In this document: positions 15,203-17,191 of the stretch, in pieces
How the letters are laid out: each line of letters starts with the position of its first letter
Position numbering within the stretch: the stretch's first letter is position 1
NCBI GenBank assembly: GCA_002715505.1
Contig: PAZF01000014.1
Coordinates: 1 to 37,867 of the forward strand
DNA: 37,867 nucleotides
Origin: Candidatus Pelagibacterales bacterium
GTDB lineage: Bacteria; Pseudomonadota; Alphaproteobacteria; TMED109
Direction of reading: 5' to 3'
The notes under the pieces: model-generated
Told to the model about the DNA's origin: nothing
What the model saw: only the letters and a program-made list of their open reading frames with translations
The model's database searches: none
Position numbers and translations under genes: made by a program

Positions 15203-15682
15203 ATGAGTACTAATTGGATAAGTAAAACTAATATAACCAGAAAATGGTTCATAATAGATGGAAAAGACTTAGTATTAGGAAGATTATCTTCTTACTTAGC
15301 TTTTCATTTAATGGGAAAACATAAAACCATATATTCTCCCAACCTAGATTGTGGTGATAATTTTATAGTAACAAATGCTGATAAAGTAATAATGACAGGA
15401 AATAAACTAGAAAAAAAAATGTATAGAAAGCATACAGGCTACCCTGGAGGGTTAAAAGAAACTTCTTATGAAAAAATTTTAAATAGTAAATATCCAGAGA
15501 GAGTTTTAAAATTAGCAGTCAGGCGTATGTTGCCAAAGGGATCTCTTGGAAGAGAACAGATAAAGAAGCTTCATATATATGGAGGTAATTCTCATCCACA
15601 CAATGCACAAAATCCAGAAATCGTTGATTTTAAGAGTAATAACAAAAAAAATTCTATAGGAAAGAAAATTGTAAATGGATAA
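15203..15682 (+). CDS. rplM: 50S ribosomal protein L13
   Basis: L13 is an early-assembly large-subunit protein. Recognisable segments are [17 protein letters not shown] near residue 14, [21 protein letters not shown] near residue 36 split by normal family residues, [12 protein letters not shown] near residue 74, and [13 protein letters not shown] near residue 105. The protein has 159 residues. It is preceded by the best promoter in the window and overlaps rpsI by 8 bases; the rplM-rpsI pair is nearly universal in bacteria. Confidence 0.98.
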
Positions 15683-16121
15683 TAATATTGATTCAAATGT
15701 AATAGAACAGACTTTAGAAAAAAAAGTTGACTCAGCAGGAAGAGCTTATTCAACTGGTAAAAGAAAATCTTCAATTGCTAGGGTATGGCTTAAAGCAGGA
15801 AATGGAAATATAACGGTCAACGGAAGAAAAGAAGAAGTTTACTTTTCATCTAAATCGCACAGGCTGCTTTTAAATCAACCTCTGGTTAACACTAATAGAA
15901 AAACAGAAATTGATGTTTTCTGTACAGTTAAAGGAGGAGGGCTTTCAGGTCAAGCAGGAGCTATTAGACATGGTATATCAAGGGCATTAGTAAATTTTGA
16001 GCCTGAGCTTAGAAAAAGCTTAAAAAAAGATGGTTTTCTTACCAGAGACTCAAGAGTGGTAGAAAGAAAAAAATATGGAAGGGCTAAAGCAAGGAGAAGT
16101 TATCAGTTTAGTAAAAGATAA
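15675..16121 (+). CDS. rpsI: 30S ribosomal protein S9
   Basis: S9 contacts the P-site tRNA through its basic C-terminal tail. Family features are [17 protein letters not shown] near residue 25, [19 protein letters not shown] near residue 96, and the end [17 protein letters not shown]. The 148-residue protein has a longer N-terminal extension (about 24 residues) than the roughly 130-residue E. coli protein, as is common in alphaproteobacteria. Translation starts inside the end of rplM. Confidence 0.98.
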
Positions 16122-16140
16122 TTTTTCGTCTCCAAATTTA

Positions 16141-16146
16141 AAGGAG
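16141..16146 (+). promoter_or_regulatory. Shine-Dalgarno sequence that fixes an ATT start for argC
   Basis: AAGGAG is a near-perfect ribosome binding site. It lies 7 bases before an in-frame ATT at 16154 and 43 bases before the first in-frame ATG at 16190. The reading frame is closed by TAA at 16151, and no ATG, GTG, TTG or CTG occurs between 16154 and 16190. The site therefore points to ATT as the initiator. Confidence 0.7.
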
Positions 16147-16153
16147 TCAGTAA

Positions 16154-17191
16154 ATTTCTTATAATAACTCTAAAGTTAATGTAGCTGTAATGGGGGCATC
16201 CGGGTATACAGGTGCTGAGACTTTAAGAATATTACTTAAACATCCAAATGTCCATATTTCAGAGTTGATAGGAGAACAGTCTGCAGGAAAAAATATTCAA
16301 GAAATCTTTTCTAATTTCTACGGAAAAGAACTTCCTGTTATAAAATCTTTTGAAGACTCTAATTTATCAGATCTAGAAATTATGTTTTCTTGTACCCCCA
16401 GCGGTGTATTATCTAAAATTATAAATAAAATTCCAAAAAATATAACTCTAATAGATTTATCTTCAGACTTTAGATTTCAAGACGTAAACCTTTATAATAA
16501 TTATTATAACTTTCATGGCAACCCTTCTTTTATAAAAAACTTTGTTTATGGGCTATCTGAAATTTTTAGAAAGAAAATTAAAGGAAGTAAATTTATTTCT
16601 TGTCCAGGATGTTACCCTACTTCAGCTCTGTTACCTCTAGTTCCATTATTGGAAAATAACTTAGTACAAACCGAGGATATAATAATTGACTCTAAATCAG
16701 GTATAACTGGTGCTGGAAGAAATATGAATCTAGATTTACTTTTTTCTGAAAATTTTGGAAGCATGAAAGCATATGGAAATGGTAATCACAGACATAAACC
16801 AGAAATTGAGCACATAATAGATATAGTAACAAACAAAAAAATAAAAATCTCTTTTACTCCTCATATTATTCCAATAAACAGAGGTATTTTGAGTACTATT
16901 TATGTAAAAGGTAGTTATAAAAAAGTGCTAGAATATTTAGAAAACTATTATAAAGAGGAAAAATTTGTAAAAATAAATAAAAATGGAACTATTCCTAAAA
17001 TAAGTGACGTAGTTGGTACAAATTTATGCAGAATAGGTATTATTAATAACCAAGAAAGTGATCGGCTTACAATTATTTCAGTTATTGATAATTTAGTTAA
17101 GGGAGCATCAGGACAGGCTGTACAAAACATGAATATAATTATGAACTATCCTGAAGAGTTAGGACTTGATAATCATTCATTATCACCTTAA
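16154..17191 (+). CDS. argC: N-acetyl-gamma-glutamyl-phosphate reductase, probable ATT start
   Basis: ArgC reduces N-acetylglutamyl phosphate to the semialdehyde in arginine synthesis. Motifs are the NADP-binding GASGYTGAE, DLSSDFRF near residue 100, the active-site cysteine in SCPGCYPTS, and TGAGRN plus NHRHKPEIEH further on. The first ATG (16190) would cut off the first beta strand (KVNVAV) that precedes the glycine motif. The frame upstream begins at ATT 16154 right after a stop and 7 bases behind AAGGAG. Starting there gives 345 residues and a family-like N-terminus. If ATT is not used, the gene is 16190-17191 (333 residues). It lies 32 bases after rpsI and is probably cotranscribed with it. 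Confidence 0.9.
   Translation: MSYNNSKVNVAVMGASGYTGAETLRILLKHPNVHISELIGEQSAGKNIQEIFSNFYGKELPVIKSFEDSNLSDLEIMFSCTPSGVLSKIINKIPKNITLIDLSSDFRFQDVNLYNNYYNFHGNPSFIKNFVYGLSEIFRKKIKGSKFISCPGCYPTSALLPLVPLLENNLVQTEDIIIDSKSGITGAGRNMNLDLLFSENFGSMKAYGNGNHRHKPEIEHIIDIVTNKKIKISFTPHIIPINRGILSTIYVKGSYKKVLEYLENYYKEEKFVKINKNGTIPKISDVVGTNLCRIGIINNQESDRLTIISVIDNLVKGASGQAVQNMNIIMNYPEELGLDNHSLSP

Follow-up and report, generated by a model that had tools for sequence, protein, structure and literature searches.

The argC gene of the analyzed window most likely starts at an ATT codon (positions 16154-16156), a reading to which we assign a probability of about 0.93 on the basis of sequence comparisons. The window is the whole stretch of 37,867 nucleotides and is located on contig C14 of its source genome (G000), a draft of 1.70 Mb in 31 contigs. 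The features relevant to this start are the following:

15203-15682, plus strand: rplM, ribosomal protein L13 (TIGR01066, over the cut-off)
15675-16121, plus strand: rpsI, ribosomal protein S9, with the C-terminus ...QFSKR followed by TAA, directly 5' of argC across the family (NF001099, over the cut-off; synteny)
16130-16133, plus strand: CTCC, which can pair with GGAG of the Shine-Dalgarno (SD) site in a putative short hairpin of -5.0 kcal/mol (folding)
16141-16146, plus strand: AAGGAG, SD site located 7 bases before ATT (GAGGAG at equal spacing in G001 and G002)
16154-16156, plus strand: ATT, probable initiation codon of argC (open frame, conservation, third-position pattern)
16154-17191, plus strand: argC, N-acetyl-gamma-glutamyl-phosphate reductase, 345 codons from ATT (TIGR01850; solved relatives)
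16175-16192, plus strand: codons 8-13 (V N V A V M), predicted first beta strand of the NADP-binding domain (DSSP on the model; homology to solved ArgC)
16190-16192, plus strand: internal methionine 13, the first in-frame ATG

A probable ATT start codon of argC

The stop codon of rpsI (TAA, 16119-16121) is found 32 bases ahead of the ATT. The frame of argC presents stops at 16139 and 16151 (TAA), is open from ATT 16154 to the TAA at 17189-17191, and encodes a product beginning with ISYNNSKVNVAVMGASGYTG... No ATG, GTG, TTG, CTG, ATA or ATC was found in this frame between ATT 16154 and ATG 16190. This reading of the frame confirms the initial annotation, according to which the frame opens only at this ATT, with no NTG codon before ATG 16190, and AAGGAG is positioned exactly 7 bases upstream. 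The spacer is TCAGTAA, and AGGAG is found at the same spacing in both congeners. The gene presents the sequence properties of AUU/AUA/AUC-initiated genes: no canonical full-length start, a conserved codon and a strong, well-spaced SD site.

We further analyzed the conservation of the ATT within the genus (g1) using four genomes, three of which possess argC (G000, G001 and G002). The ArgC proteins of G001 and G002 share 70-71% identity with that of G000, and the ATT occupies the same column in all three species. The start region of the window reads aaAGGAGtcagtaa-ATT-TCT-TAT-AAT-AAC-TCT-AAA-GTT and the one of G002 reads, in essence, tagAGGAGaagtaag-ATT-TCT-TAT-AAT-AAT-TCA-AAA-GTC; G001 is in essence identical to G002, with one undetermined base before the ATT. 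The first 18 residues of ArgC are identical in the three species, except for one Val/Ile difference in G001. Across the 12 codons from ATT to GTA, the differences at codon positions 1, 2 and 3 number respectively 0, 0 and 5 between G000 and G002, and 1, 0 and 5 between G000 and G001. The 32 bases 5' of the ATT differ at 18 sites between G000 and G002 and at 17 sites between G000 and G001 (about 55% divergence). This divergence of third-position type in the 12 codons preceding ATG 16190 indicates that the stretch is under coding constraint and translated. For comparison, ordinary ATT isoleucine codons remain ATT in only 41% of the aligned cases (G000 versus G002).

The initial annotation had suggested an alignment with close relatives, in which ATG, GTG or TTG in the ATT column would point to a sequencing error. 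None of these codons was seen in that column among the congeners, and both the ATT and AGGAG were kept while the leader diverged. Outside the genus, argC starts at ATG in the sister genera examined. The conserved ATT, together with the translated 12 codons, argues against a sequencing or assembly error replacing an ATG, GTG or TTG. The draft state of the genome would leave room for such an error, but the ATT is found in three separately assembled species and other genes present the same pattern across the four species of the genus, which makes this explanation hardly credible.

The product of argC scores 372 bits against TIGR01850 (cut-off of 233.6) and presents the GASGYTG nucleotide site and the PGCYPT active-site cysteine, which identifies it as a type 1 ArgC equivalog. 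This cysteine (C153) is invariant among the aligned ArgC relatives; a search of the genome contigs with ArgC matched only distant relatives. The first position of the profile corresponds to residue 8, and alignments with solved ArgC structures begin at residues 5-9, both of them ahead of Met13. We also built an AlphaFold2 model from a three-sequence alignment and assigned its strands with DSSP; with a mean pLDDT of 57, only its local N-terminal element was used. This modest model presents a strand at residues 8-13, the last residue of which is encoded by ATG 16190, and a start at Met13 would drop five of the six residues of this predicted strand.

These results bear on the possibility that translation begins at ATG 16190 and that the 12 upstream codons constitute a leader. 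This ATG is the first in-frame ATG and would be the choice of an automatic gene caller. However, this start conflicts with the third-position changes and with the extent of the profile, and it would remove the strand; the cost of the first beta strand, anticipated by the initial annotation, is supported by the relatives, the profile and the structural model. As also anticipated, no SD site is present before ATG 16190, whereas the SD site before the ATT has been maintained in a diverged leader. The same kind of misannotation was proved wrong for pncA of Borrelia (PMC13398362). Overall, we consider initiation at ATG 16190 very improbable, and ATT 16154 is retained as the start of argC.

Other genes with non-canonical starts and the strength of their SD sites

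We searched for similar starts by pairing stop-to-stop frames between 1.56 Mb of G000 and 0.89 Mb of G002. This survey covered one pair of genomes of the genus and 734 pairs of orthologs with both 5' ends visible. Candidates were genes whose N-terminus presents a synonymous type of divergence with no usable ATG, GTG or TTG in either genome. In addition to argC, five clear cases were identified, all with ATT (contigs of G000):

C19, 17456-17475: aspartate-aminotransferase-like gene, AAGGAG-6-ATT, with matches in each of the four species (G000-G003)
C21, 9814-9847, minus strand: NtrX-like sigma-54 response regulator, GGAG-6/7-ATT, all four species
C6, 67879-68775: parB, (C/A)AGGAG-6-ATT, no canonical start, G000 and G002
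C12, 21885-22475, minus strand: pyrE, no ATG/GTG/TTG start, candidate ATT with a weaker SD site, two species
C21, 21872-23509, minus strand: pyrG, no ATG/GTG/TTG start, candidate ATT with a weaker SD site, two species

The families of argC, the aminotransferase, PyrG, PyrE, ParB and the NtrX-like regulator are assigned by Pfam. Moreover, no canonical start is available to infC, whose first codon is ATA both in this genus and in genera g4 and g7. Weaker cases, which we regard as possible only, include zapE, hpnC, a glycosyltransferase and a Tim44-like gene. The survey also flagged prfB owing to its well-known frameshift, which indicates that the method finds real recoding. Given the 41% rate at which ATT is kept inside genes, plain conservation of isoleucine is an unlikely explanation for this series of conserved ATT starts, bearing in mind that the cases were chosen post hoc. 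Separately, an MltA-like lipoprotein frame without a start was observed on the minus strand of contig C6 (ORF g0_2041) and in its G002 ortholog; reading from the ATG located upstream leads into a run of T, which suggests either slippage at this homopolymer or a misassembly.

SD energies were computed with the standard anti-SD sequence, from which the lineage's own 16S end may differ, because the 16S 3' end of the lineage was not found in the assemblies. The SD site of argC presents an energy of about -8.3 kcal/mol (AAGGAG) or -8.9 kcal/mol (GAGGAG). Such sites are rare in G000: conserved ATG codons are preceded by sites with a median energy of -0.5 kcal/mol, and SD sites with at least five contiguous matches in both genomes were found at 33 of the 573 ATG columns conserved between G000 and G002. 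The strength of argC's site is matched by only 2.8% of 607 ATG genes (when the genome with the weaker site is used for each gene), and about 2% of the ATT triplets genome-wide are preceded by an equally strong site at a spacing of 4-11. By the same measure, argC, the aspC-like gene, the ntrX-like gene and parB all rank within the strongest 2-3% of these ATG genes. Taken jointly, the six ATT genes present stronger SD sites than ATG genes (P = 2e-4; Mann-Whitney test), a value that is somewhat flattered because the choice of the ATN codon in parB and pyrG was made with the SD site in view.

An altered initiator tRNA was also considered as the cause of the ATT start. Neither the 16S 3' end nor the initiator tRNA was seen in the G000 assembly, and no match to the canonical anticodon arm of the initiator tRNA (GGGCTCATAACCC) was obtained in the four genomes of the genus. 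Since the 16S 3' end is missing as well, the absence of this tRNA is uninformative and is most likely due to rRNA operons that were left unassembled; this candidate was set aside.

The rpsI-argC junction and a possible translational throttle

The gene argC is located behind rpsI in every member of the family examined (23 argC loci), but the junction differs among genera. A rho-independent terminator of the AAGCGGTTG...CAACCGCTTTTTTTT type separates the two genes in genera g2, g5 and g6. The gap is short and devoid of terminator in g1, g4 and g7, and it extends over about 60-70 bases in g8, with a GC-rich sequence before the ATG. The ATG of argC is nearer the core in g2, g5, g6 and g8; in g4 and g7 it lies close behind rpsI without an evident SD site and opens an unconserved N-terminal tail. 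Only g1 pairs an ATT start with a strong SD site.

These observations suggest a role for the ATT start. Translation of argC would begin at AUU 16154, presumably with formyl-methionine, and AAGGAG, 7 bases upstream, would position the ribosomes on this codon. Since the pairing of AUU with the initiator tRNA is imperfect, initiation would be inefficient, and the strong SD site would make up in part for the poor codon. In S. aureus, AUU and AUA starts with strong SD sites yield about 10% of the AUG output (PMC13009471). As no terminator separates argC from rpsI, which ends 32 bases upstream, argC probably shares the abundant rplM-rpsI transcript, and the likely function of this arrangement would be to keep ArgC low despite this position. 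We infer from sequence comparisons the initiation at AUU in the cell, the co-transcription, the reduced yield and the selection for this reduced yield. Most simply, a gene reached by read-through from a ribosomal-protein operon would need its translation held down, and genera may achieve this differently. The presence of a terminator in distant genera, as opposed to no terminator and an ATT in this genus, favors throttling, which we consider the probable role of the ATT start, although with clearly less confidence than the start itself.

Several properties of the leader are relevant to this role. A promoter-like match overlaps the leader (16137-16165), which renders the co-transcription of rpsI and argC uncertain, and argC could be transcribed separately. 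A hairpin covering the SD site, comparable to the one involving CTCC, is possible in G001 and G002 despite their diverged leaders (reading the N of G001 as A); the fold of the whole leader was no better than that of shuffled sequences (z = -1.0). Two other candidates were rejected: a fusion of S9 and ArgC, or a frameshift from rpsI, is ruled out in G000 by the two stops in the argC frame, and a regulatory mini-ORF formed by the out-of-frame ATG 16179 and TAG 16182 is absent in G001.

Alternatively, the start might rely on reinitiation: after ribosomes end rpsI 32 bases upstream, the remaining 30S subunits would accept AUU while held by the SD site. The short and conserved distance between rpsI and argC, with a strong SD site between them, is consistent with this scenario, which is also compatible with throttling. 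However, ordinary SD-led initiation accounts for the same features and 32 bases is long for translational coupling, so that we consider reinitiation unlikely.

It has also to be considered that AUU may make argC respond to IF3, as the initial annotation proposed, and to the state of ribosomes or growth, as for infC, in which case low IF3 would raise ArgC. Such a link is possible since infC itself is devoid of a canonical start, its first codon being ATA in the genus and in sister genera. IF3 represses non-canonical starts, including those of infC and of Streptomyces sigR (PMC5472188), and an AUA start of S. aureus changed with the medium, but the AUU start of cvfC1 showed no medium effect in the same species (PMC13009471). 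A constant throttle fits the anatomy of argC equally well without IF3, and the coupling of IF3 to arginine is a conjecture, which we view as somewhat more doubtful than reinitiation. More speculative still, the genes combining AUU with a strong SD site (argC, the aspC-like gene, the NtrX-like gene, parB and probably pyrE and pyrG), with infC at AUA, might constitute a regulon at the level of translation, because most of them serve nitrogen, aspartate, arginine and pyrimidine metabolism. IF3 or free 30S subunits would then tune this regulon, which would connect the assimilation of nitrogen with the supply of ribosomes. Constant throttling remains our preferred reading.

Comparison with known non-canonical starts

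AUU starts have been treated as curiosities. The one described here is conserved and belongs to a core gene of metabolism, and comparison among genera points to a possible reason for it: in this genus, a strong SD site and a poor start codon are found where distant relatives present a terminator. Since several genes of the genus behave alike, gene callers limited to ATG, GTG and TTG would truncate or miss a recognizable set of proteins in this lineage, which lends itself to studying the reasons for retaining a poor start codon. We found no paper describing a non-canonical start of argC in open-access full texts.

The infC gene of E. coli and many other bacteria starts at AUU, AUC or AUA and is autoregulated by IF3. 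It resembles argC in its non-canonical AUN start with an SD site, which limits translation and would do so in argC, but argC encodes a biosynthetic enzyme outside the initiation machinery. To our knowledge, there is no feedback loop acting through the product of argC.

Weaker start codons generally go with stronger SD sites, and an ancestral reconstruction identified a single switch to AUU among 61,358 AUG starts (PMC5622118). The pcnB gene of E. coli is translationally limited by an AUU start (Binns and Masters 2002, cited in PMC13009471). As would be the case for argC, the codon keeps a chromosomal gene low, but in another gene and lineage, and the AUU of argC is located directly behind rpsI. 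The cvfC1 (AUU) and ccpN (AUA) genes of S. aureus, for which an output of about 10% of that of AUG was measured (PMC13009471), share with argC a conserved non-canonical start and an unusually strong SD site; the starts of these Firmicute genes were shown by ribosome profiling and reporters, whereas the start of argC is predicted from its sequence. In Borrelia burgdorferi, pncA (BBE22) starts at AUU and databases list a truncated protein that does not fit the fold (PMC13398362). Both pncA and argC encode a metabolic enzyme for which a later start would misfit the fold, although pncA is a spirochaete plasmid gene with experimental support. Finally, repression by IF3 was shown genetically for Streptomyces sigR (PMC5472188), where the non-canonical start reduces one of two proteins encoded on the same transcript, as we propose for argC, but with GTC as the codon. 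The ATT start of argC joins the type known from infC, pcnB, pncA and cvfC1, and it is not unique in its genome.
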